Positions 8,092 through 28,096 of a stretch of 64,000 nucleotides of DNA are shown one piece after another. The notes under the pieces are model-generated. The model did not search any database, was not told where the DNA came from, and saw only the letters and a program-made list of their open reading frames with translations. Within the stretch, counting starts at the first letter, position 1; every line of letters begins with the position of its first letter. Origin of the DNA: an uncultured Pseudomonadota bacterium (GTDB taxonomy: Bacteria; Pseudomonadota; Gammaproteobacteria; CAJXQU01); NCBI GenBank assembly GCA_913058255.1, contig CAJXQU010000009.1, forward strand, positions 1-64,000, written 5' to 3'. Position numbers and translations under genes: made by a program.

Positions 8092-8971
8092 TTAAGCCAC
8101 TTTTTTCATTTCTGCTGTTCTTTGTGCTGGCGTGATATACCCCAATGAAGAATGTAGTCGTTTATAGTTGTAAAAATAGATATAACTCTCAACTGTAGTG
8201 ACAGCAGCCTGATGATTGATAAAACTTAATAGATTTAATCGTTCTGTTTTTAAACTCCTGAAGAATCGCTCCATCACACTATTATACCCCAAGGGCAGGC
8301 TTCGCGCTCCCAACAGTTCCCTCGACGACTCATACTTTGCGTGATGCTGAGCTTACTTAAATACTCAACAAATACGTTCGCTGAATACTGTACTCCTTGA
8401 TCGGAGTGAAAAAGCAATTGGCTCGCGTCGGGTCGTTGCCTGCGAATAGCATGGCGTAATGCTTTTTTTGCTAATTCTGCATTGGGATGTTTTGACATCG
8501 CCCAACTCACAATTTCCTTTGAACCTAAATCAAGCACACAGGCCAAATAACTCCAGCCTTGATGAGTGCGGATATAGGTGATGTCACCCACCCAGTGGGT
8601 GTTAATTGTTTCAGGGTAGAACTGACGACGAAGAATATTATCTGCTTTGATATGAGATTTACCTGTGTTTGGATAGTAATGCTTTTTTCGAGGCGTGATG
8701 GCGAACACATTGGCTTTTCTCATCAAGCTTGCGGTTCGATAGACGCCAAGAGAAAAACCTTTATTTAATAACGACGATGCATGCCTCGTTTGCCGTATGA
8801 ATAGTTTGTTTCAACAGCAATCATTTTGATTGATTCCACCATGATACGTTCTTCATGATGAGTGGATTTTTGACGACATTGGTAATAATAAGTGCTGGTA
8901 CTTACCTTAAAAACGCGACAAAGTTCGTGAGTCGTATAATCAGGGTTGGCTTTTTTCATCTCACTCATCAA
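8092..8971 (-). pseudogene. IS3-family transposase OrfB, disrupted by a 1-nt frameshift and a 23-bp insertion
   Basis: ORFs 8765..8971, 8274..8726 and 8092..8313 are consecutive OrfB pieces (DITYIRTHQGWSYLACVLDLGSKEIVSWAM, FHSDQGVQYSANVF, VMERFFRSLKTERLN). Confidence 0.9.
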
Positions 8972-9279
8972 CTTAGACTGTTGTTGTCTCGAATGAAAAA
9001 AGCTGCCGCCTTTTTTAGTATTTCATTATCCCGTTTAGCACGCCAAAGTTGTTTTTCTAACGCTTGGATCTTCTGTTGCTCGGCTGTGAGTGCCTTTTTC
9101 CCTTGAGGTGTTTGTCCGTTTATTTCAGCAAGGTATTGTCGTTTCCAGCGTGATACAGCCGTTGCCCCGGCCCCCGATATTTCTCTTATCTGGCGATTAC
9201 TATAGCCTTCGTTGACCATCAGTTTGGCATATTCTAATTTCTGCTCAACTGAAAAATTGATTCGTTGTTTTCGGTTCAT
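8968..9279 (-). CDS. IS3-family transposase OrfA
   Basis: HTH MNRKQRINFSVEQKLEYAKLMVNEGYSNRQIREISGAGATAVSRWKRQY and leucine-zipper-like tail. Confidence 0.9.
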   Translation of the reverse strand: MNRKQRINFSVEQKLEYAKLMVNEGYSNRQIREISGAGATAVSRWKRQYLAEINGQTPQGKKALTAEQQKIQALEKQLWRAKRDNEILKKAAAFFIRDNNSLS

Positions 9280-10997: not shown

Positions 10998-12563
10998 TTA
11001 AATGGCCTTGCTTGAAAGTTGCTTAGCAATATATTCCGCTTGTCTGATTGCTAAAGAAACAATCGTTAAAGTAGGGTTCTCCGCAGCACCTGTTGTAAAT
11101 TGGCTACCATCTGAGATGAACAAGTTTTCAATATCATGAGTTTGTCCATATTTATTACAAACACCATCTTCTGGTTTTGCACTCATTCGGCATGTGCCTA
11201 GATTATGTGTTGATGGATAAGGAGGAGTTCGATAAACTTTTTTTGCCCCAGAAGCCTCATAAACTTTAGTGCCTTGTTGATACGCATGCTCACGCATAGC
11301 GATATCATTTTTATGATCATCAAAATGAACATTAGGCACTGGCAAACCATATTGATCTTTATCAGTTGGATGCAATGTAATGCGGTTGCTTTCTTGAGGC
11401 ATATCTTCACCGACTAACCACATACCGGCCATGTTTTTATAGTTATCCATGGCTTCTGTAAAGTCTTCACCCCAACTACCTGGCTCCAAAAAAGCTGCCA
11501 TGAAAGGTAAGCCCAGTGATAAAGTTTCCATCTCATATCCGCCAACGAAACCTCGAGACGGATCATGTTTTGACTCATCGGTAATAATTCCAGCCATGGT
11601 TGTACCACGCCACATATGCACGGGTTTATCAAATGTTGCATAGACAGAACCCGTCATATGCCGCATATAGTTTTTACCGACTTGTCCTGATGAGTTAGCT
11701 AAACCATCACTAAATAAACCACTCGCTGAATTGAGCAATAAACGTGGAGACTCAATGGAGTTTCCTGCGATGCAAACTACACGGGCTTTTTGTAACTGGG
11801 TGTTTCCTTCAGAATCAGTGTAGAGGACGCCATCAACTTTTCCATCTTTAGAGTGATGTACCTTCATCACATGGCTACCTGTTCTCAAATCAAGATTGCC
11901 TGTTGCTTCAGCTGCAGGTATCTCTGTATAGAGCGTTGACCATTTAGCGCCCATCTTGCAACCTTGGAAACAAAACCCTAGCTGCTGACAGCTTCCACGA
12001 CCATCTCGAGGCCTACTATTAATCGCCATACGTCCGGTATGACAGTCTTTATAACCAAGTTTCTTCGCACCTTCATACATCACCTTGAAATTATTATTTC
12101 CAGGTAATCCAGGTATACCGTTGGTTCGAGTTACACCCATTTTACTTTCTGCTTTTGCGTAGTAGGGCTCTAACTCTTTTAAGGTTATTGGCCAATCTAA
12201 AAGGTTTGCACCTTCTACCTTTCCATAAGTACTCAAAGCTTTAAACTCATAGTCTCTTATTCGTAAGCTTGCCCCCGCCCAATGTGCTGTGCTTCCTCCA
12301 ACGGTTTTACAAATCCATGCTGGTAAATTAGGAAAGTCTTTCGACACTTGCCAGCCTCCGGAGGTGCTTCTATTATCAAGCCAAGCTAATTGTGTAAAAG
12401 ATGCCCATTCATCATTTACAAATTTCTTAGTTGATTGTCTTTCACCTGCTTCAAGCAATACTACCTTGACGCCTTTTTGACAAAGTTCGTTGGCTAACGT
12501 ACCGCCTCCAGCACCTGAACCAATGATGACAACAGGACTACTATCATTCAAATCGTACTTCAT
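10998..12563 (-). CDS. GMC-family FAD-dependent oxidoreductase
   Basis: VVIIGSGAGGGTLANELCQKG FAD motif; C-terminal HNLGTCRMSAKPEDGV...LFISDGSQFTTGAAENPTLTIVSLAIR. Confidence 0.93.
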   Translation of the reverse strand: MKYDLNDSSPVVIIGSGAGGGTLANELCQKGVKVVLLEAGERQSTKKFVNDEWASFTQLAWLDNRSTSGGWQVSKDFPNLPAWICKTVGGSTAHWAGASLRIRDYEFKALSTYGKVEGANLLDWPITLKELEPYYAKAESKMGVTRTNGIPGLPGNNNFKVMYEGAKKLGYKDCHTGRMAINSRPRDGRGSCQQLGFCFQGCKMGAKWSTLYTEIPAAEATGNLDLRTGSHVMKVHHSKDGKVDGVLYTDSEGNTQLQKARVVCIAGNSIESPRLLLNSASGLFSDGLANSSGQVGKNYMRHMTGSVYATFDKPVHMWRGTTMAGIITDESKHDPSRGFVGGYEMETLSLGLPFMAAFLEPGSWGEDFTEAMDNYKNMAGMWLVGEDMPQESNRITLHPTDKDQYGLPVPNVHFDDHKNDIAMREHAYQQGTKVYEASGAKKVYRTPPYPSTHNLGTCRMSAKPEDGVCNKYGQTHDIENLFISDGSQFTTGAAENPTLTIVSLAIRQAEYIAKQLSSKAI

Positions 12564-12632
12564 GAGTACCTCCTCATTTTTATGTCAGTTCTACAGAAAC
12601 TTTAAACTGTTAATTTTTATTATTATCTCAAT

Positions 12633-13190
12633 TTACATCTTTGCTGGACTATCTTCTGGAAGCGGATCAGGCAACCAATCAAGATCCTGGAATCCTCGAT
12701 TGAAATATCCACCTTTATCAAAAGATGATCCTTCGTATCCAAAATGAGCCCATGCCATATCATTGTTATATAATGAGACTATTCCAGTACCTCTAATTTT
12801 TTCAAAAAAATCACTTCCTGCAATCTCTTTAATAATTGCATGCTGTTTTTCTTTTGATACTTCTAACCAACTACCACCTGCACGTTTATCAAGATCGACG
12901 ACACCATCAGTTAATAACTTTTTGACCTCACCACTTCCTTTAGCTGCACCATCAAGATCCTTAACCAACAATGCATAAATGGCATCATCTAAATCTTTAT
13001 GTGGAAAAATTGTTTTTGCAGCAACCAGAATACTTTCTCCATCAGTACTGGATAGAGCATCCAAATTTAATGCCCAAGAACGACTTGGGGCCATCATCGA
13101 CAACATCCCACTTGTCGCGACAATCGTACCGGTTAGTACGCTGACACTCGACTTAACAAATTGTCTTCTTGATTGTTTTGTTTTTATCAT
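12633..13190 (-). CDS. Gluconate 2-dehydrogenase subunit 3 family protein with Tat-like signal
   Basis: SRRQFVKSSVSVLTG twin-arginine leader; located directly upstream of the GMC gene. Confidence 0.8.
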   Translation of the reverse strand: MIKTKQSRRQFVKSSVSVLTGTIVATSGMLSMMAPSRSWALNLDALSSTDGESILVAAKTIFPHKDLDDAIYALLVKDLDGAAKGSGEVKKLLTDGVVDLDKRAGGSWLEVSKEKQHAIIKEIAGSDFFEKIRGTGIVSLYNNDMAWAHFGYEGSSFDKGGYFNRGFQDLDWLPDPLPEDSPAKM

Positions 13191-14615: not shown

Positions 14616-15430
14616 CTAACAGATATGTAATGCGTTATATTTGTGATTGAAAAAAGTGGGTTTATGTTGCAAGTGCAACACCTGTGATTTTGAAAAAAAT
14701 ACCTTGTAGGGTGTTAAATAATTGAGGCGTTTACGAGGCCGTTTATTAAAGGTTTCCACGGCATGAACGAGCGTTTTTATCGGTAACCTTTCTTCAACCA
14801 ATCTTTTTTGGAAAATAATGCGGTAATAAATCATTCGTGTTTTCGTTTGTTTCTCGCTCCTAAAGGAAATATGGGGCGACAAAGTAAACAGAGATTCAGG
14901 TTTTTGATTGCCCATCAGCTTAAAGCCGCAAACTACTTACCATTATCGACCGTCAAAGTTTTACGCCATACTATAAATCTCAGCCCGTTTGCCATGTAGC
15001 TTAGTGGCCACCAACAATCGACTTTTACGTTCGATACGGCTTGCTATATCACCACGGCTTTTTGCTCCTTCTACCGTATGACTTTTCCAGTGGCTAGCCG
15101 ACACTTATTCTCAATGCTTTCGATGCTTATGAATACTGATTCAGCCAAGGGGAAATCCTCTTGTGCCATAAACCATTTGTTGATGGTATTTTTCATGTAA
15201 TCCTAGTAAATGGTTATAAAGTTCTACATCTTCTTTGACATTCTGGTAAATCCACTTTCAGTACTAATACGCATCTGTCTTTTCTTGAACAGCCTTGTTG
15301 CAGATGTTGAACAACGTAGTGAGCTAATGAAGATTTATGTCGCTCCTGATCGAATAAGGAGTAAGGTATTTTATCAGCTGTTCAAGTCATGCCTTTTTTC
15401 TAAATAAAGTGGCGCACTTGGAAATGAAGT
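14616..15430 (-). pseudogene. Degenerate IS30-family transposase
   Basis: Minus-strand fragments SRGDIASRIERKSRLLVATKLHGKRAEIYS and ETFNKRPRKRLNYLTPYKVF in different frames. Confidence 0.7.
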
Positions 15431-15622: not shown

Positions 15623-16198
15623 ATGCTCAGCATCAAATCGTCACGCATGGCAGCATGCATATTTGTCTTAACTAACTTATTATCAGCGCCCGTTATCGCT
15701 TTAGATTTAACTCTACATTTAGAACAAGGCTCTGACCTAACAAAGTTAACTGATACTGATTGGCAGCTATTGAAAACAACAGCTAAAGAGGCATTAAACA
15801 CCTCTCAAGAAGGAAAAAACTATTTCTGGCAAAACCCAAAATCATTTAATAGTGGTGTTATTACTATTCTGTCTACAGATGAAAGTAGTGGAGGGGTAAC
15901 CTGTCGAAATGCCAGTTTTACTAACACTACAAAAGAATTAACAAGTACGACCATCGTTAAACTTTGCCAACAAGGTGAGAAATGGGTAGAGCTTAGTTCA
16001 AAAAAAACAACCTTTTCAAAAAACACTTCTACTAGAAATGATTTGGCAACGTCTCCTCAAGAAGAGGTAACGAATCAAAAATTGGACCATACATCAGAAC
16101 GTTGTCGAAATTTATCCCGAAATATTGATGAGCTCAAAGGAAAGCCTTTAAGGCGGTCAGCGGCTATGGACTTATATAGTGCAGAATGTCTAAGATAA
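15623..16198 (+). CDS. Small secreted protein, RT0821/Lpp0805 (17 kDa surface antigen)-like
   Basis: Signal peptide; NYFWQNPKSFNSGVITILSTDESSGGVTCRNASFTN..; C-terminal extension with two Cys. Confidence 0.6.
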   Translation: MLSIKSSRMAACIFVLTNLLSAPVIALDLTLHLEQGSDLTKLTDTDWQLLKTTAKEALNTSQEGKNYFWQNPKSFNSGVITILSTDESSGGVTCRNASFTNTTKELTSTTIVKLCQQGEKWVELSSKKTTFSKNTSTRNDLATSPQEEVTNQKLDHTSERCRNLSRNIDELKGKPLRRSAAMDLYSAECLR

Positions 16199-16360
16199 TA
16201 CAATTCAGTCAAGTGATAATGTAACTTGAATTTATAATGGCGATCTTTCGAGGTTACCTATAGGTTGGGGAATTTGTTCTATTTATAACCCATATACTGG
16301 TGTATCGCTTTGTGAATTCATTTATTATGACTTGCGTAAACCAATTATATAAAGAGGTAA

Positions 16361-16738
16361 ATGATGACATCATCAAACATTAATAAAACGGCAATTACTT
16401 TATCATTCATAACACTCACGCTAGTTTCCTCCCCAGCACTTTCCGGAAGCTGGAATTGGCTGGAAAACAGTCCTGCAGAAGCTTTTACTGATAGTGACTG
16501 GGCGATGTTAAAACAAACAGCTAGAGCCACCTTAGAACATGGGGAGGATGGAAATACGGCAACGTGGGTTAATCAAGATACAGGACACTCAGGCTCTATC
16601 ACACCATTAAGTACCTTCGACAATAATGGCATGCTCTGTCGAAAAGCAAAGTTCTTTAACAGCGCAGATAAAATGACGGGTAGCTCAATATTCAGGCTTT
16701 GTAAACAAGAGGATGGGAAGTGGAAAGTCACCAATTAA
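16361..16738 (+). CDS. Small secreted protein, paralog of 15623..16198
   Basis: TDSDWAMLKQTARATLEHGEDGNTATWVNQDTGHSGSITPLSTFDNNGMLCRKAKFFN aligns with the upstream ORF. Confidence 0.65.
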   Translation: MMTSSNINKTAITLSFITLTLVSSPALSGSWNWLENSPAEAFTDSDWAMLKQTARATLEHGEDGNTATWVNQDTGHSGSITPLSTFDNNGMLCRKAKFFNSADKMTGSSIFRLCKQEDGKWKVTN

Positions 16739-17189: not shown

Positions 17190-18770
17190 TCAAAGCTGTC
17201 CTTTGATGGGTATGAAACGCATCAAGCCCGCAACAAATCGTTGTCTCCAAGTTGAGTAGGGTTCTTTTTTATAGACTCTCTCAACTCCTTCATCATATGC
17301 ACGCCACTGAACCTTATTAGTGTCATTGAGGAACAGCTCAAAAGCCTGTGTGGGAAGTATGGTATCTATATGATTGGCAAACTGTAGTGCCAGTAGTGGA
17401 GATGATATAACAAGGCCAGACTCGGTATTAAGATAAGCAGATCGTGGATCAAAATTAAAAGAGCCAACGAATATTTTTTCGCGATCGATAATGAAAGCTT
17501 TTGTATGAAGAGTGGCCTTCGCGCCACTAGCTGCAAAAATCTCAGCACCAGATATATTCGCATCGGGTCGAACTTCGAAAATCTGAATGCCATTCATCAA
17601 AAGAGGTTTTCGTGAGGGTGAGTAACCGCCATGAACAGCGGCATGGTTGTTTGCGGCTAAAGAATTTGTGATTATTTTTACTTTTACACCACGTGCTTGC
17701 AGTGAAGAGAAGAATTCAATGCCATCTTTTCGAGGAACAAAATAGGGTGACAGTAGAATCAGCTCTTTACTGGCAGTTTGAAGTGTCTTTAATAAAGGTC
17801 CTGTTATGTCGAGGCTTGGGCCAGATTTAGATTTGATGCCCTTATCAGGTGAGTCGTAGATTAGTTTATAGGGAACCCAGTCGAATACGTCATTCTTCCC
17901 ATCGAGAAATGCCATGGCTTTTTTAATAACTACAGAAGCATACTTGGTGTTTTTGATCGACTCACGTGATTGATCAAGTTTAGTGCTCAACTGTTCCAGT
18001 GCTTTTTCTGGGGCATCCAATGGTTTTGCGAATGCAGATACAGGTAATGCGGTTTGATGATTCCAGAAACTGTCAAACATTGCAGAAACATCTTGGGCAA
18101 CACTGCCGATACCAACAACATCCAGATCACCAAACTTTTCATGTTGGCTAGCACCGAAATACTCGTCGGCAATATTACGACCGCCAATAATTGTTACTTG
18201 ATTATCGATGGTAAACGATTTGGTATGCATGCGACGATTAATGCGACTGAAATCAGTAACACCGCTCCAGGCTCGACCGAACACTCCACGTTGGAAAGGA
18301 TTAAATACACGAATTTCAAAATTTGGGTGTGTGTCAAGAGCCAGCATTTCAGCATCATAACCAGAAGCAAAGACATCATCTATTAATAGTCGGATACGCA
18401 CGCCACGATTTGCGGCTTGGAGTAAGGTGTTGATAAAAATAAGGCTGGTTGTATCGGTTTTAATCAGGTAATACTGGGCATCAATTGTACGCTCGGCTTG
18501 CTCTGCGAGCAGCAGCCGTGCGGTGAGCGCATCCATGCCGTTTAGTAGAGGATAAAAGCCCGAATGATCTTTTGGTTTAGAGGCAACAAGAGGGGTGTAT
18601 GTGGTTCCAAGTAGAGTATCTTCAGTATTAATTATGGTATGTGATTCTATTCGAGGGTGCTTATAGTTGATACTCGTGCAAGCTGTGAGTGTAGTGAGTA
18701 TCGACATTAGAAGACCCATCTTAATAAAAAGGTTGATGATAGTGTTATTCATTAATAATTGATTTGGCAC
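17190..18770 (-). CDS. Phospholipase D-like lipoprotein (cardiolipin synthase ClsC/YmdC-like)
   Basis: Two HKD motifs: MHTKSFTIDNQVTIIGGRN and LHTKAFIIDREKIFVGSFNFDPRS; lipobox LTAC. Confidence 0.88.
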   Translation of the reverse strand: MPNQLLMNNTIINLFIKMGLLMSILTTLTACTSINYKHPRIESHTIINTEDTLLGTTYTPLVASKPKDHSGFYPLLNGMDALTARLLLAEQAERTIDAQYYLIKTDTTSLIFINTLLQAANRGVRIRLLIDDVFASGYDAEMLALDTHPNFEIRVFNPFQRGVFGRAWSGVTDFSRINRRMHTKSFTIDNQVTIIGGRNIADEYFGASQHEKFGDLDVVGIGSVAQDVSAMFDSFWNHQTALPVSAFAKPLDAPEKALEQLSTKLDQSRESIKNTKYASVVIKKAMAFLDGKNDVFDWVPYKLIYDSPDKGIKSKSGPSLDITGPLLKTLQTASKELILLSPYFVPRKDGIEFFSSLQARGVKVKIITNSLAANNHAAVHGGYSPSRKPLLMNGIQIFEVRPDANISGAEIFAASGAKATLHTKAFIIDREKIFVGSFNFDPRSAYLNTESGLVISSPLLALQFANHIDTILPTQAFELFLNDTNKVQWRAYDEGVERVYKKEPYSTWRQRFVAGLMRFIPIKGQL

Positions 18771-20001
18771 AACGGAAACCTAAATGTTGCATGCCGCTGT
18801 CAGGGCTTAAACGCATACGTCTGGAATTGCGATAACCAGAACACCAACTATCATTACAGAGAAATGAGCCACCACGTACTACTTTATTGGTCGCGTGTTG
18901 TTGATATATTTCATGACTCTTCTCTGGGCCTTGTGGGTTGATAGAGGTTGTCCCTTTCAGTATTTGTTGTTGATAATAATCGGGATCATACCAATCATTG
19001 GTCCATTCCCAAACATTGCCAGCCATGTCATAGAGGCCATAGGCATTGGGGCGGAAAGACTTAACTGGTGCGCGAGTAACGTAACCGTCTTTGCCTGTAT
19101 TGATATAGGGAAATTCCCCTTGTAAAAAGTTGCCCTGTTGGCTGTTATTTGTAGTCTTTTGATTGCCCCAAGGATACATAGTGTTCCCACCTCCCGCGCG
19201 CATGGCATATTCAAACTCGGCCTCAGTCGGCAGCCGTTTTCCACGCCACTTAGCGTAGGCCATGGCATCGTACCAAGAGACTTGGGTGACGGGCAGGTTG
19301 AGTAACTGATGAATATCGCTATTTTCAGCTTTAGGAGACTTCCAGTTTGCTCCTCTGATAAAAGACCACCAGTTGGCTAAATTTTCTTTGTTGATAGATT
19401 TATCAATTAAGTGAAAAACCAAGGCGCCGGCTTTAAGGTCCTCATCGTTTGGTTTAGGCGTGCCTGGCGGGAGTTGTTTTTTTAACTCTTCCCAATTGAT
19501 ATCCTGTTCTGCGACGGTTTTATAGCCTGTTGCCTTAACGAAGGTTAAATAATCACCGACGGTAACCTCATGTTCATCTATGTAGTAGTCAGATACACGT
19601 ACGGGGTGTTTAGGAAACTCGTCGGGTTGGGGTAAGGCACTTTCGGGCATATTTTCAAAACCGGCTACTTTATCAGCGCCCATTTCAAACTGGCTACCTT
19701 TTATCAATATCATATCAGCTGTTATGGTGTTGATATCTTGTTCTACTGGACTGATCGCATCAATTACACTCAGAAATTGTTGATCTAAATATCGTTGTCC
19801 AAGTAAAAGCTTAGTATCGGGGTTAACACAAAAAGTCGGTGTCACTTCTGTATTCGATATATCTATATTGTCTTGTGTTTTTGGCTGGGTGGCTTTTGTT
19901 GTGCCAACCTTTATGCTGCTCGTATCCTCTTTAGGGTTATCGCATGCTGTTAATACGAGCATTAATGATAATGAGGAGATTACGATTATTTTTGTGACCA
20001 T
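18745..20001 (-). CDS. Formylglycine-generating enzyme (SUMF1/FGE)-family lipoprotein
   Basis: FGE fold motifs MILIKGSQFEMGAD, YIDEHEVTVGDYLTFV, WEWTNDWYDPDYY, VRGGSFLCNDSWCSGYRNSRR with both Cys; N-terminal lipobox LTAC. Confidence 0.88.
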   Translation of the reverse strand: MVTKIIVISSLSLMLVLTACDNPKEDTSSIKVGTTKATQPKTQDNIDISNTEVTPTFCVNPDTKLLLGQRYLDQQFLSVIDAISPVEQDINTITADMILIKGSQFEMGADKVAGFENMPESALPQPDEFPKHPVRVSDYYIDEHEVTVGDYLTFVKATGYKTVAEQDINWEELKKQLPPGTPKPNDEDLKAGALVFHLIDKSINKENLANWWSFIRGANWKSPKAENSDIHQLLNLPVTQVSWYDAMAYAKWRGKRLPTEAEFEYAMRAGGGNTMYPWGNQKTTNNSQQGNFLQGEFPYINTGKDGYVTRAPVKSFRPNAYGLYDMAGNVWEWTNDWYDPDYYQQQILKGTTSINPQGPEKSHEIYQQHATNKVVRGGSFLCNDSWCSGYRNSRRMRLSPDSGMQHLGFRCAKSIINE

Positions 20002-20015
20002 AAGTATTTTCTTTT

Positions 20016-21005
20016 TTATAACTCAAATGGAAAAATGACCTTCCAGTCTTTTTTCATATCAATCACTGTCCAGTTGTTATTATTGGCTTGAGTTAGTCCT
20101 TTATCAAGTCTACCGACGTTGGAATGTTTGTCATATGCCCACTCTCTATCAACATCTGTATGGTGTAAATACAGCATAAAACGTGATCCTTTACCTGATG
20201 CCGTCCACTGCATCATTTCTAAATCACCATCGGAATTACCGACGGACATAACAGGTTTACGACCAATGAATTTATTAATACTGAGTGCTTTTCCTTCGTG
20301 GTCGTTATTGAATTCTAGCTCAGGAAGACGGGTGATCGTTGTCTGGCCGTTTTCATAACTGAAATGAGTTTTTAATGTGCTACCTATAATGCGGTCTTTA
20401 GGGATACCGTAGACCTGTTCTGCCCAAGCACGTATAAACTCTATACTGCCGCCTGACACGATAAAGATTTTAAAATGATTGACACGCAAGTAATCTAATA
20501 GCTCCAGCATAGGTTGGTAGACTAATTGGGTAAACGGTTTCTTTAGAACAGGGTGTTGTGCTGTAGATAGCCACGTATTCACAAGTTGTTCAAATTCATT
20601 AGTATTCGTTTGGCTATGTGCGCTGAATACTAAATGCATCAAATCCTCTGCGTTGAATTGTGCGATCTTTTGAGTGTCATTCTCAATGACTGCCTGGTAG
20701 GGATGTGTGTCTTTCCATTCTGGGTGATCATCTGCCAGTTCGCGTATACGATCCATGGCGAAGAAGAATTGAAAATACATTGGTTGTTCGCCCCAAAGTG
20801 TACCGTCATTGTCGAAAGTGACAATACGATCCTCAGTTGCAATGAAGTGTTTACTTTTAGGATCTACCGTTTTTTCTACAAACGTTATAATAGCTGACTT
20901 TGTCTGACCTTCATTCCAAGAGGGTAAAAAGTGTTGAACATCTGATGCTTTTGAGCAAGGTATCAAACAACAGAAAAGAAAAAAGAAATGGATTTTAAAC
21001 TTCAT
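20016..21005 (-). CDS. Secreted HAD-family hydrolase
   Basis: Signal peptide; IVTFDNDGTLWGEQP; IFIVSGGSIEFIRA; VGNSDGDLEMM. Confidence 0.85.
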   Translation of the reverse strand: MKFKIHFFFLFCCLIPCSKASDVQHFLPSWNEGQTKSAIITFVEKTVDPKSKHFIATEDRIVTFDNDGTLWGEQPMYFQFFFAMDRIRELADDHPEWKDTHPYQAVIENDTQKIAQFNAEDLMHLVFSAHSQTNTNEFEQLVNTWLSTAQHPVLKKPFTQLVYQPMLELLDYLRVNHFKIFIVSGGSIEFIRAWAEQVYGIPKDRIIGSTLKTHFSYENGQTTITRLPELEFNNDHEGKALSINKFIGRKPVMSVGNSDGDLEMMQWTASGKGSRFMLYLHHTDVDREWAYDKHSNVGRLDKGLTQANNNNWTVIDMKKDWKVIFPFEL

Positions 21006-21165
21006 AACGTATTCTCTAGCTATTTTGTGACGTTAGTAATGTGAAGCGTGTTGATCGAGATGCAATATGAACAATGGTGAGCGTTGTTATTACTCGCTTC
21101 TTAATGATAAACAACCCTGCCTCAGGAAATGAGACAGGGTGTATTTTCATTATGCTATAAGCACG

Positions 21166-22695
21166 TTAATTAGAAGGTGCTTTATTAAGGATTTCAAAAG
21201 CGTTATCTAACTGTATACTGTTGCTTTTTTGACTTGGTGGATATTCTTTAAACGATTGTAACAGGTTGCCAATAACTTTCCCTGCGGGGCCGGCCATATA
21301 GAGTCGTTGCTCCATCCATTCACCATAGCCTCTGGTTTTATGCATTCTTTCAAATGGATCTAACTTTAGGTTAGTAACGATAGGGCTTGACAATGATTGT
21401 TGCGGAGACATAAACCAATCCTCTTGATCTCTAAACATGAACTTCCAATCACCATACCTTACTGCATGGAATGTGGTTTCTGTGAAATAGAAAAAGTCTT
21501 TACGTTTAGTCTTGCCGTTATTTAACACTAGATCACTTTGGTCGTAGCCGTCCAGATGGTTTTTATAGGTTTTTCCGCCTACTTTCTTACCCACTAGTAG
21601 CTCATCTTTGAGTTTATCTTCACCTTGGGTGATAGAGAGGATAGTCGGTAGCCAATCTTCCATAGTCATAAATTCACCGGTAGAAACATCTTCTGGAATA
21701 TGACCTTCCCATTTAACAATAACAGGAACTCGGAATGCACCTTCCCAACCTCCGGCACCTTTTTCACCGTGGAAAGGTTGGTTACCACCATCGGGCCATG
21801 AATGGGTTGCCGCACCATTATCGGTAGCAAACATAATAAAAGTATTATCCGCAACACCTAACTCTTCTAAATGCGAAACTAGTTGGCCAACATTGTGATC
21901 TAACTCCGCCATTCCATCGGCATATTTACCGTAACCGGTTTTACCTTCGAACTCAGAAGTTTGATGTGTAGGGTAATGCATTCTAATGAAGTTATGCCAA
22001 ACGAAGAAAGGTTTGTCTTCTTGTACAGCTCTAGACATAAAATCTTTAGATTTTTCAACCACTTGTTGATCGAGTGTCCTTTGTGCTTCAGTTCCCCAGT
22101 TGCCAAGGTCTTCAATTGTTTGCCCGCCTTTTCCATCGGCTTTGGAATGAATGATTCCCCGTGTACCAATTTTCCAGGCTTCGGCTTCCTTAGGTGTTGG
22201 GTAATCATATTGCTCTGGATATTGCGCGGCATTCAAGTGATACAAAATGCCATAAAACTCATCAAAGCCGTGATTCGTTGGTAAAAACTCATCTCTATCA
22301 CCGAAATGATTTTTACCAAATTGACCGGTTGCATAGCCATGGGGTTTAAGTAATTCAGCAATCGTTGGATCTGTACTTTGAATTCCTTCAGCTGCACCTG
22401 GTAAGCCGACTGTACTTAGCCCCGTTCTCATCGGATATTGCCCTAAAAGAAATGCGGCTCTTCCTGCAGTGCAAGACGCTTGTGCATAATGATCCATAAA
22501 CATCATGCCTTTCTTAGCAAGTTTATCAATATTAGGTGTAGTGCCGCCCATCATGCCACGATGATAAGCACTAATATTCCACATACCAACATCATCTCCC
22601 CAAATAATTAAAATATTTGGTTTTTTATCTTCAGCGTGAGCTGTACTCGATAATAATATAAATAATAAGCTAAAAGCTTTAATGAACTTTTGCAT
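21166..22695 (-). CDS. Secreted arylsulfatase
   Basis: Signal peptide; PNILIIWGDDVG; ASCTAGRAAFLLGQYPMRTGL; FATDNGA. Confidence 0.94.
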   Translation of the reverse strand: MQKFIKAFSLLFILLSSTAHAEDKKPNILIIWGDDVGMWNISAYHRGMMGGTTPNIDKLAKKGMMFMDHYAQASCTAGRAAFLLGQYPMRTGLSTVGLPGAAEGIQSTDPTIAELLKPHGYATGQFGKNHFGDRDEFLPTNHGFDEFYGILYHLNAAQYPEQYDYPTPKEAEAWKIGTRGIIHSKADGKGGQTIEDLGNWGTEAQRTLDQQVVEKSKDFMSRAVQEDKPFFVWHNFIRMHYPTHQTSEFEGKTGYGKYADGMAELDHNVGQLVSHLEELGVADNTFIMFATDNGAATHSWPDGGNQPFHGEKGAGGWEGAFRVPVIVKWEGHIPEDVSTGEFMTMEDWLPTILSITQGEDKLKDELLVGKKVGGKTYKNHLDGYDQSDLVLNNGKTKRKDFFYFTETTFHAVRYGDWKFMFRDQEDWFMSPQQSLSSPIVTNLKLDPFERMHKTRGYGEWMEQRLYMAGPAGKVIGNLLQSFKEYPPSQKSNSIQLDNAFEILNKAPSN

Positions 22696-22733
22696 TCTTA
22701 ATTCCCCTCTTGGTAGTTTTTATAAAAATAGGT

Positions 22734-23543
22734 TTACTTAGAAAACTGCATATTTACTGCGAAATAGATCTGCCATTTAGGTTGGCCAGGACCTTTATCA
22801 AAAATAGAATACTGCGGTTCAACAAAAAAATTGAAAACCGTTTTATTCTTTTGAATCACTTTTCCTAAACGAAGGCCTACTGGTATGCTGTAACTATCAT
22901 TTTTAAAGTTGTATCCCCAAAGAGGCGCCATACCTGTATACCAACCTTTCTCAAGTTGATATACAAGAAAAGGTTGAAGAGCTGCTAGTGATACACGATC
23001 ACGCCCATTTGTATCTCCAACACCAGCGCGATAGGTTAATAAATAACCATATTGAAATTTTTCAGAACGCGCATTGAAGTAAACATTCGCCAACCCCAGC
23101 TGTAATTGTTCAGCCCCTAGCCGATCATCTGTCGCGGTGGGCAAAACCACTTGTGGCCCGATACCAAAACTAATTTTCGGATCACCTGTTTTAAAAAGGT
23201 AAGAAGCAAAAATATCAAAATCACCTATGCCCGTCTCTCTAGTTCCATCAGTATTAACAGGTAAACTATTAATCGGTAATGATGCTCGTGCTAACCAATT
23301 CGTTTTGCCAATACTGACAGGCTTGCCGTAGCGTAATACAAATTGATTTCCTTTTTGGTTACTCTCGGTGAACTTACCGATGTAATAATTTTGAATATTA
23401 AACGAGGTTGTTTCTGCTAGCGGATTGTTTGCATCTGAAGTTGTATTTGTTGCTTCAAAATCATCCTGAGCCTGCGCCGTCTGACTAGATATGCCAAGCG
23501 ACATAACAGCGATAATAGATGTTGCGATTCTCTTGTAAACCAT
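22734..23543 (-). CDS. Outer membrane beta-barrel protein / transporter-like
   Basis: Signal peptide AQAQ; alternating beta strands; SIGKTNWLARASLPIN, GIGDFDIFASYLFKTGDPKISFGIGPQVVLPTAT. Confidence 0.7.
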   Translation of the reverse strand: MVYKRIATSIIAVMSLGISSQTAQAQDDFEATNTTSDANNPLAETTSFNIQNYYIGKFTESNQKGNQFVLRYGKPVSIGKTNWLARASLPINSLPVNTDGTRETGIGDFDIFASYLFKTGDPKISFGIGPQVVLPTATDDRLGAEQLQLGLANVYFNARSEKFQYGYLLTYRAGVGDTNGRDRVSLAALQPFLVYQLEKGWYTGMAPLWGYNFKNDSYSIPVGLRLGKVIQKNKTVFNFFVEPQYSIFDKGPGQPKWQIYFAVNMQFSK

Positions 23544-24692: not shown

Positions 24693-26360
24693 TTAGTCCA
24701 ACTTCTCCAAACAAATAATTTTATCCATCCGTTCTAGTCCTATTTTTCTATGAGTGATCATCAAAATGCTGATGTCGGGATTATCGTCAAAAATAGCATT
24801 CAGCATTTTTTTCTCAGTGATGGTATCTAGTCCTTCTCCCGGCTCGTCTAGGATTAGGATGGGTGTGTTTTTGAGTAAGGCTCTGGCGGTGGCTATACGG
24901 CGTGATTGGCCGCCTGAGAGTTTAAGGCCTGCTTCGCCGATCCATGTGTCATATCCCTGGGGCTGGCTGATGATGAAGTCGTGTATTTGTGCGGTTCGAC
25001 AGGCTTGCTCTATTTCATCATCATTCGCATTGTTATTCGCTAATAGTAAGTTCCTTTTGATTGTGCTGTTAAATAGTAGGGTTTGTTGACTGACGACGCT
25101 GAAATATTGACGACTGTCGTCACTGTGGAAATGTTCGAGAGAGTGGCCGCCGAGTGTTATTTCTCCGCTTGTTATTGGCCAGAGTCTTAGTAGTAAATGC
25201 ATAACGCTGGTTTTGCCGGCGCCACTTTCACCGATGATAGCTAACTTGTTACCTTGAGGAAGTTTAAAGTTGAGCGAACTGAGAACATTCCCTTGCTTTT
25301 CATCGTAGTGAAAGCTGACTTGCTTAAACTCGATATCAAAATTTTCTGGTTTAGGTGAGGCAGTTTTAGGTTCTTTGATCAGTGGTTTTTTGTCGACGAT
25401 TTCAAAAATACGTTTGGCTGATTTCAATGTTTCAGGCAATAATTGCAGTGCTAAGGGCAGGGGAGCAATGGCCTCGAAACTCGCGAGTGCAAATAGCGCC
25501 AACATAGGGATGTTTGCAGCGGAAATTTGTTGTTCTTTAAGTAGTGGGATGCTCAGAAGCAGCATGCTCCACATTGCTAGGTTTGCGCAGAACAACATGG
25601 CTGCCTGGGAGATACCGTATAAACTGGCTTGTTTTTCCTGATCCTGTAACAGGTCCTCAGTTAATTGGGATATTTTGCCCGCTTGTGTGTCTGCAGCTCC
25701 GTAGATCAGCAGTTCCCCCATACCTTGTACGCTGTCTGAGGTGGTTACTCGTAGATCGCTTTTGCATGTGATCAATCGTTCACCACTGTGTTTGGCTTGT
25801 CTGTTGATCAGAATAGGGACTAACACACCGGCAATAAATAATAGTGACATTTCTACAAGTAAAAGTATGTCGTTGTATTGGTGCAGGAATAAGGCAAAGA
25901 ACACACATGCGATGATGGCGACGATAATCGGCGCTAGGATCCGTAAATAGAAATTTTCGAGGTGATCAATATCAGCTCTAATTCGGCTAAGAAGATCGCC
26001 GCTGTGATAGTGCTGTAAAACAGCTGGGGCTAGTGGTTCTAAGTGTTGATAAAACCAGACTCGTAGGGACGCCAGTAATCTAAATGTGGCCTCGTGAGTG
26101 ACTAACCTTTCAGCATAACGTCCCGCCGTGCGTGTTATGGCAAAACCTCGAATAGCAGCGGCTGGTGTAAAGTAGTTCACCTCTGTCGTGCCGGCGGCTC
26201 CGGCAATTGCCATCATAGTAATAAACCAACCTGCTAATGCAAGTAGACTGACATTGGCCAGAATCGTCATTAATGACAAGCACACTCCTAACAGCATCCA
26301 TGCCCAATAGGGTCGAAACAACTTCAGAAGTCTGCATAATATATTTATGTTATTTATCAT
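24693..26360 (-). CDS. cydC: Cytochrome bd biogenesis ABC transporter subunit CydC
   Basis: ABC exporter fold, GESGAGKTSVMHLLLRL, LSGGQSRRIATARALLKNTPILILDEP; overlaps cydD, downstream of cydABX. Confidence 0.92.
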   Translation of the reverse strand: MINNINILCRLLKLFRPYWAWMLLGVCLSLMTILANVSLLALAGWFITMMAIAGAAGTTEVNYFTPAAAIRGFAITRTAGRYAERLVTHEATFRLLASLRVWFYQHLEPLAPAVLQHYHSGDLLSRIRADIDHLENFYLRILAPIIVAIIACVFFALFLHQYNDILLLVEMSLLFIAGVLVPILINRQAKHSGERLITCKSDLRVTTSDSVQGMGELLIYGAADTQAGKISQLTEDLLQDQEKQASLYGISQAAMLFCANLAMWSMLLLSIPLLKEQQISAANIPMLALFALASFEAIAPLPLALQLLPETLKSAKRIFEIVDKKPLIKEPKTASPKPENFDIEFKQVSFHYDEKQGNVLSSLNFKLPQGNKLAIIGESGAGKTSVMHLLLRLWPITSGEITLGGHSLEHFHSDDSRQYFSVVSQQTLLFNSTIKRNLLLANNNANDDEIEQACRTAQIHDFIISQPQGYDTWIGEAGLKLSGGQSRRIATARALLKNTPILILDEPGEGLDTITEKKMLNAIFDDNPDISILMITHRKIGLERMDKIICLEKLD

Positions 26361-28096
26361 AATGATGACTGATAAATATCATGTGAAATATCACTATAAA
26401 GTCCCGGTTCTTCAAGTAGTTCCTTATGTGTGCCTGTTTGTGTTACTTGACCTTTATCCATCACCAAAATTTGATCGGCTTTCTCTACGGTTTTTAGTCG
26501 GTGAGCGATCATAATAAGAGTTTTATTTTGACCAAGCTGGTCTAAGCTTTGTTGGATCAACTGCTCACTTTCAGCATCTAAATTTGCCGTCGCTTCGTCT
26601 AATAGGATAATCGGTGCATCTTTTAGGAAAGCGCGGGCTAGGGCAATGCGTTGTATTTGTCCGCCTGATAGGCCTTGACCTCGCTCGCCGATCAATGTGT
26701 TATAGGCTTCAGGCAGGTTTTGAATGTATTGATCAATATGTGCGAGCTTCGCTGCTGTTCTGATTTTTTCTTCACTCGCTTCAGGCATGCCTAAAGCAAT
26801 GTTTTCTCGAATACTACCGTGAAATAAATAGGGGTTCTGTGGTACCCAAGCAATATGTTTTCGCCAGTCTTCTAATTTGAGCTGGTTGAGGTTGTGATCA
26901 TTTATTTTGATCTCACCACTGGTGGGAGAGATGAAGCCAGCTAACAGTCTGATGATGGTCGTTTTACCAGCGCCACTCTTGCCGACTAGCGCGGTTCGGC
27001 TTCCTGCTGGGATAGATAGCTTGAGAGGCTGTAAGGCTATGCCTCGATTATCATAGGCATAGCTGACCTGATCAAATTGAATATTTATCGGCTTGTTTGT
27101 GGCGATTAATGATTTGTCGTTATTAGCGAGAGCATGTGCAGGGATAGGTTTCGCGAGAATATCCAGCATTTTTTCAGCCGCACCGATGGCTTCCAGTCGG
27201 GCGTGATAATGTGTGCCCATATTACGTAGTGGTAAGTAGAACTCGGGAGCGAGTAATAGCGCAAAGAAGCCATAAAAGAAGTCTATTTCACCATAAAGTA
27301 GCCTGAAACCGACTAAGACAGCAACAATTGCAATACTAACACTGGCAAGAAATTCTAAAACTAGTGATGAAAGAAAGGCCACGCGTAATACTGACATGGT
27401 TGATTGTCGGTATTCTGTGGAGATCCGCCGGATCGTTTCAATTTCACGCTGGCTGGCGTTAAATATTTTTAAGGTGCTTAGCCCCTGAATCATATCTAAA
27501 AAATGAGCACTCATACGCGCCATTTCTCGCCACTGTTTCTTGTTTAGTCGCTCAGTGCCCTTACCGATCAAGATCATGAAAAATGGGATTAAGGGAGCCG
27601 TTACTAGCAGTACTAGTCCTGAGATCCAGTCGATAGGAAAGACAAATATCAAAATAGAAAGTGGAATCAAAACGACTAATGACATGGTTGGTAGGTAGCG
27701 TGCGTAATAACCTTCGAGTGCTTCAACGCCATCGATCAATGTGTTGATCAGTTCACCGCTTCTTTCACCATCCGTTGCGATGGGCCCGAGAGATAGAATA
27801 TGCTGGTGTAGTGTTTGGCGTAAGTTACGCTTTATTTCAGCGGCGGCCTTAAAGGCGATGATTTCAGCGGCCCAGCTGAGGATTGCACGCAGTGAAAAAA
27901 CTCCGAGCATGCTCAACAACCAAACGTATACATCATCCAATGCTGCTTTTTCAAAGATGACGGCATTGATTATATTGGCAAGTAGCCATGCTTGTAGGAT
28001 GAGTAAAAATCCAGCGCTGAGCCCCAAACCGATCGCGAGTGAAAGGTAGTGTCCGGTGAGGTATTTTTGTGACTTGAGAAAGTCAGATATGCTCAT
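26357..28096 (-). CDS. cydD: Cytochrome bd biogenesis ABC transporter subunit CydD
   Basis: VGKSGAGKTTIIRLLAGF, LSGGQIQRIALARAFLKDAPIILLDEATANLD; gene order. Confidence 0.93.
   Translation of the reverse strand: MSISDFLKSQKYLTGHYLSLAIGLGLSAGFLLILQAWLLANIINAVIFEKAALDDVYVWLLSMLGVFSLRAILSWAAEIIAFKAAAEIKRNLRQTLHQHILSLGPIATDGERSGELINTLIDGVEALEGYYARYLPTMSLVVLIPLSILIFVFPIDWISGLVLLVTAPLIPFFMILIGKGTERLNKKQWREMARMSAHFLDMIQGLSTLKIFNASQREIETIRRISTEYRQSTMSVLRVAFLSSLVLEFLASVSIAIVAVLVGFRLLYGEIDFFYGFFALLLAPEFYLPLRNMGTHYHARLEAIGAAEKMLDILAKPIPAHALANNDKSLIATNKPINIQFDQVSYAYDNRGIALQPLKLSIPAGSRTALVGKSGAGKTTIIRLLAGFISPTSGEIKINDHNLNQLKLEDWRKHIAWVPQNPYLFHGSIRENIALGMPEASEEKIRTAAKLAHIDQYIQNLPEAYNTLIGERGQGLSGGQIQRIALARAFLKDAPIILLDEATANLDAESEQLIQQSLDQLGQNKTLIMIAHRLKTVEKADQILVMDKGQVTQTGTHKELLEEPGLYSDISHDIYQSSL

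Follow-up and report, generated by a model that had tools for sequence, protein, structure and literature searches.

A predicted lipoprotein formylglycine-generating enzyme beside a Sec-exported sulfatase, as a proposed case of matched maturase location and sulfatase export route

The 64,000-nucleotide stretch analysed here (the window; positions 1 to 64,000 of contig CAJXQU010000009.1, from an uncultured gammaproteobacterium) encodes on its minus strand an S1-type arylsulfatase with a signal peptide for the general secretory (Sec) pathway (21166..22695) and, beyond one intervening gene, a formylglycine-generating enzyme (FGE) with a lipoprotein leader (18745..20001). It is proposed, with a probability of roughly 0.75, that the sulfatase is exported through Sec and converted by this extracytoplasmic FGE, that the locus is probably an acquired module, and that it represents one case of a wider pairing rule. 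The parts of this reading taken from sequence are the leaders, the catalytic residues, the lack of another detected maturase, and the co-variation of sulfatase leader with the location of the partner FGE; from them we infer the activity, membrane side, timing and substrate of the locus.

The FGE matches PF03781 over the full domain (2e-74, profile positions 3-255 of 255). Its N-terminus up to the lipobox cleavage site reads MVTKIIVISSLSLMLVLTAC|D, with an LTAC lipobox (19942..19953, minus strand) and an aspartate at position +2. Solved bacterial and human FGEs align over the catalytic domain with E-values down to 4e-65, and both of their active-site, copper-ligand cysteines are matched by C382 and C387 in the motif GGSFLCNDSWC (18841..18873, minus strand). 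The two cysteines are invariant across 17 relatives (alignment A1), in which a leader or anchor is likewise present. The retention of the catalytic pair, proposed in a first-pass annotation of this DNA, is thus borne out. The protein is a predicted Cys-pair, copper-dependent enzyme of the SUMF1 type with a lipoprotein leader. Its structure model, with a predicted local distance difference test (pLDDT) score of 62, is too weak for a fold search or for judging the active site. Aerobic bacterial FGEs, such as those of Streptomyces and Mycobacterium, have the same domain, Cys pair and GGSxxCxxxxC motif; the window FGE differs from them in its lipoprotein leader and in a linker some 75 residues long. 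The leader with its lipobox sets it apart from a cytosolic bacterial FGE, in which no export signal would be expected. The catalytic domain is homologous to that of SUMF1 in the endoplasmic reticulum (ER), with the same catalytic motif, and both enzymes would meet unfolded, Sec-translocated sulfatases in an oxidising compartment. The targeting signals differ: SUMF1 is a soluble ER protein, whereas the window FGE is predicted to be lipid-anchored.

The sulfatase (N-terminus MQKFIKAFSLLFILLSSTAHA) matches PF00884 at 8e-54 and has human ARSA and GALNS among its relatives in the PDB. It contains the domain, the Cys motif and the metal and catalytic residues of S1 sulfatases (DD, GKNH, DNG and EKG). 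The cysteine expected to become formylglycine lies in a CTAGR motif at residue 75 (22459..22473, minus strand), and C75 is the sole cysteine of the entire protein. CTAGR is common to 14 of 14 close homologues among the matches listed.

The source genome, that is the window's own 2.78-Mb assembly (96% complete), encodes one PF00884 sulfatase and three PF03781 proteins, and the Cys pair is found only in the window FGE. The other two lack it: one is an OvoA-like protein, and the other joins a PP2C phosphatase to a domain of the FGE type (locus L002, 1492-3318). Radical-SAM maturases (AtsB and the anaerobic sulfatase-maturating enzyme, anSME) offer an alternative route to formylglycine; no match to the anSME family TIGR03942 was found in the 96% complete assembly. 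Within its 96% completeness, the source genome thus offers no candidate maturase other than the exported FGE.

Export of FGE, which the first-pass annotation had treated as a departure from cytosolic maturation, is not a local peculiarity. Outside the Pseudomonadota set, 105 FGEs were scored (mainly from Bacteroidota, with a few other phyla), and each has a lipobox, signal peptide or N-terminal anchor; most of them were found through similarity to the window FGE, and 29 come from an even sample of Bacteroidia. Pseudomonadota FGEs are split between exported and leaderless forms. Export thus appears to be the norm among Bacteroidota and is common in Pseudomonadota. In the even sample of 290 Bacteroidia genomes, FGE occurs in 33 and anSME, over the cut-off, in 8, with no overlap; anSME is below the cut-off or missing in 28 of 29 genomes bearing related FGEs. 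Exactly one FGE match (1e-28) was found in 20 of 24 genomes, where sulfatase matches number from 1 to 61, and the single-FGE genomes include Zobellia barbeyronii (60 sulfatase matches) and a Cyclobacterium (61). What appears to be a cytosolic version of the cassette was also observed: at loci L185 and L258, leaderless CTAGR sulfatases lie beside leaderless FGEs, and at L258 the HAD hydrolase is leaderless as well. Cys-pair FGEs are also present on haloarchaeal plasmids; the one at L299 (Halomicrobium) lacks a leader, and a sulfatase was not found within 4 kb of it.

The pairing was examined in 90 FGE-sulfatase pairs lying within 3 kb, drawn from the phylum and class samples, their neighbourhoods and named loci of matches to the window FGE. 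With curated labels, the sulfatase beside an exported FGE had a Sec or lipoprotein leader in 51 cases, and in none was it leaderless or preceded by a twin-arginine translocation (Tat) leader; the partners of leaderless FGEs were leaderless (18), Tat (13) or Sec/lipoprotein (8). Within Pseudomonadota, the ratio of Sec/lipoprotein to Tat/leaderless sulfatases was 20:4 for exported and 11:28 for leaderless FGEs with unedited labels (p=2.5e-5), 23:0 and 9:31 with curated labels, and 15:0 and 4:13 when counted by family (p=7e-6). Restricting the comparison to exported sulfatases gave Sec to Tat ratios of 51:0 and 8:13 (p=3e-9). Beside exported FGEs, CTAGR sulfatases also have a lower number of extra cysteines, 0.88 on average against means of 2.3-2.7 (p=0.004, uncorrected for phylogeny). 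Across many genomes, the predicted location of the FGE tends to match the export route of its partner sulfatase.

Several points weigh against the proposed reading. The motif departs from the C/S-x-P-x-R consensus, CTAGR having alanine where CxPxR sulfatases have proline. Leader type was called by a home-made fixed rule applied to the region ahead of the catalytic domain, and curation was not blind: seven labels were edited (L186, L219, L221, L244, L252, L280 and L286) and a split gene (L017) was dropped. The eight leaderless FGEs adjoining apparently Sec or lipoprotein sulfatases indicate that a cytosolic FGE acting before Sec export may work too. In a named plasmid hold-out, 9 of 11 classifiable pairs were concordant (all 3 with exported FGEs and 6 of the 8 with leaderless ones), which is too small for significance alone; the discordant pairs were those of Cupriavidus pinatubonensis and a Sphingobium, the Azospirillum sulfatase was called Tat by eye, and C. 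campinensis was left out as unclassable. One paper, which also covers the copper dependence of FGE, states that the prokaryotic enzyme is located in the cytosol (PMC4505483). Finally, FGE location changes only four times on the FGE tree, so that simple counts are not independent, and Fisher counts alone were not accepted as proof.

Because of this clustering, contrasts on the sulfatase tree, where the leader state changes about 18 times, provide the fair test. Among 16 contrasts that were supported and independent, the location of the partner FGE shifted in the same direction in 12.8 and in the opposite direction in none (p=2.4e-4). With unedited labels, 10.7 of 17 were in the same direction (p=0.002). 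When only Sec-versus-Tat contrasts were considered, the figure was 6.6 of 9 (p=0.016). HAD hydrolases encoded nearby served as an internal control: they are often Sec-exported even where the sulfatase is Tat, so the match between FGE and sulfatase is not a general neighbour effect.

A mechanism consistent with these data can be outlined. Sec carries unfolded chains, whereas Tat carries folded proteins, and FGE requires its target motif to be accessible prior to folding, as established for the eukaryotic enzyme. The sulfatase would be exported unfolded through Sec with the single C75 of its CTAGR motif still reduced. In E. coli, an aspartate at +2 leads to retention of a lipoprotein in the inner membrane; the FGE, with the same residue, would be held on the periplasmic face of that membrane. 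There its two cysteines, with Cu(I) and O2, would oxidise C75 to formylglycine before folding is complete. The active sulfatase and the exported HAD hydrolase would then act in the envelope on a sulfated, possibly also phosphorylated, substrate, which may enter through the barrel encoded upstream. Joint processing of sulfate and phosphate esters is a guess based on the HAD partner. Under the wider rule, exported FGEs would serve Sec sulfatases, and leaderless FGEs mostly cytosolic sulfatases or those exported folded through Tat, since a protein that Tat moves folded should be modified inside. The lone C75, like the lower number of extra cysteines beside exported FGEs, fits an oxidising compartment.

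Other explanations of the exported FGE were weighed against this mechanism. The FGE precursor could modify the sulfatase while still facing the cytoplasm, its own export as a lipoprotein being slow and the lipoprotein an end product; the eight mixed pairs make cytosolic FGE followed by Sec export seem workable. This is unlikely, as a leader or anchor is kept in all scored Bacteroidota FGEs, and the lack of Tat sulfatases beside exported FGEs (0 of 51 after curation) is unexpected for an enzyme working in the cytosol. It is similarly improbable that the lipoprotein has another role, structural or in other thiol oxidation, while a separate system matures the sulfatase. FGE-fold lipoproteins with other functions do exist, namely GldK/PorK and GldJ of Bacteroidota, and some Cys sulfatases are converted in E. 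coli even though it has no known FGE. The window FGE, however, scores only 126.6 bits against the GldK NCBIfam cut-off of 350, keeps the catalytic cysteines that are invariant in A1, and belongs to a group in which linkage to sulfatase genes recurs.

The association itself could reflect taxonomy or operon context, with some lineages exporting everything and no functional coupling between the two proteins. With only four changes on the FGE tree, FGE location is deeply rooted as a trait, which would agree with this explanation. The independent contrasts on the sulfatase tree and the departure of the HAD neighbours from the pairing rule speak against it, as does one genome (G894) in which an exported pair occurs alongside a leaderless one (L223, L232), and it is judged very improbable. 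Maturation after export, as the first-pass annotation suggested, is favoured by the comparative evidence in Bacteroidota and Pseudomonadota.

Genes for a CTAGR sulfatase, HAD and FGE are found as a group on nine contigs of Bacteroidota and also in Pseudomonadota; Muricauda, Aquimarina and Tenacibaculum are among the genera with the trio. Since it recurs in this way, its co-occurrence exceeds chance. The exported proteins around this core vary (DUF481, DUF2490, small barrels). The closest FGE matches are from marine Flavobacteria (58-64%), while the best FGE from a genome of the same class, in a sample of relatives, is at 44%. Two congeners lack the FGE, and no DNA match to the cassette was found in either. 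The cydDC genes (24693-28096) are matched in both congeners, with a different 3' neighbour in each of the three genomes, which suggests that the 3' flank of cydDC is a variable site. Judged from these sequence comparisons, horizontal acquisition of the sulfatase module or its FGE is likely. Fragments resembling IS3 orfA and the C-terminus of an IS30-type transposase were seen by eye at 8968-9279 and 14616-14915, on one side of the cassette. The nearest plasmid-borne sulfatases are from Pseudoalteromonas (65%), Acinetobacter (64%) and Pseudochrobactrum (62%). The last has a Tat-type leader (MQRRTFLSFS) and lies next to a leaderless FGE, so that closely related sulfatases in Pseudochrobactrum and the window differ in both leader and FGE location; sulfatase and FGE may have different histories.

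All five minus-strand open reading frames of the locus, and the N-terminal export signal of each, were confirmed as first annotated, as were the LTAC lipoboxes of the FGE and of the phospholipase D (PLD)-like protein. The five genes probably form two transcription units, barrel with sulfatase and HAD with FGE and PLD, because a terminator-like hairpin (21114..21140, minus strand; 11-pair stem, T-rich tail, -21.8 kcal/mol with 50 nt folded) separates sulfatase from HAD. A single five-gene operon is doubtful for the same reason. The HAD-type hydrolase (20016..21005, minus strand; N-terminus MKFKIHFFFLFCCLIPCSKAS), a recurrent partner of CTAGR sulfatases, is exported, keeps DNDGT, and matches its profile at 1e-9 and the HAD hydrolase structure 4ovy at 1.6e-104.

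The PLD-superfamily lipoprotein (17190..18770, minus strand) contains two HKD motifs and matches PLDc_2 at 8e-35; its N-terminal region ends ...LLMSILTTLTAC|T at the lipobox cleavage site. Translation probably starts at ATG 18752, overlapping the FGE stop, rather than at GTG 18770. Scores of 93 and 74 bits, below the NCBIfam cut-offs for cardiolipin synthase/ClsB (281-290), place it in the PLD superfamily only. The gene is probably co-transcribed with FGE, yet outside the conserved cassette, and its membership was rejected as no comparable homologue lies beside FGE in the relatives examined. Of the five genes, whose conserved order had been suggested as a check, sulfatase, HAD and FGE recur as a unit and PLD does not.

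The outer-membrane beta-barrel-like protein (22734..23543, minus strand; N-terminus MVYKRIATSIIAVMSLGISSQTAQAQ) is Sec-exported and is the first gene product of the upstream unit. It has no Pfam match, and its structure model is all-beta, of low confidence (pLDDT 59) and too weak for a fold search. A homologue with 40% identity adjoins the sulfatase in Aquimarina sediminis (L009), and on a Persicobacter plasmid a sulfatase homologue is closely followed downstream by a barrel homologue. The earlier idea of a self-contained route starting from import was not upheld: the row is without an inner-membrane transporter, the barrel is small, and PLD does not accompany the cassette in the relatives examined. 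Elsewhere in the window, a GMC oxidoreductase adjoins a small protein whose leader is of the Tat type (RRQFVK) and which by eye resembles the gluconate 2-dehydrogenase small subunit (10998-13190), perhaps a periplasmic dehydrogenase pair, and two adjacent plus-strand proteins of the 17kDa_Anti_2 type lie at 15623-16738, the second over and the first just under the Pfam cut-off.

The chemistry of FGE is already known, and the exported variant, with a general rule that can be tested, appears to be new; a keyword search of the literature, with partial coverage and few subscription papers, returned no passage that describes export of a bacterial FGE, and priority is not established. On the comparative sequence data, sulfatase activation probably takes place outside the cytoplasm in many bacteria, as it does in the ER of human cells. 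We lean towards the broader view that a large extracytoplasmic branch of bacterial FGEs matures Sec sulfatases and that, in an ER-like manner, the compartment of the maturase constrains the export route, Sec with exported FGEs and Tat or none with most cytosolic ones. Bacteroidota are major degraders of sulfated glycans, those of algae included; if maturation of their sulfatases takes place in the envelope, this would explain how an aerobic species can serve about 60 sulfatases with one FGE. It would provide a parallel to the ER, predict whether a given sulfatase requires Tat or Sec, and guide aldehyde-tag methods and the expression of marine sulfatases in heterologous hosts.
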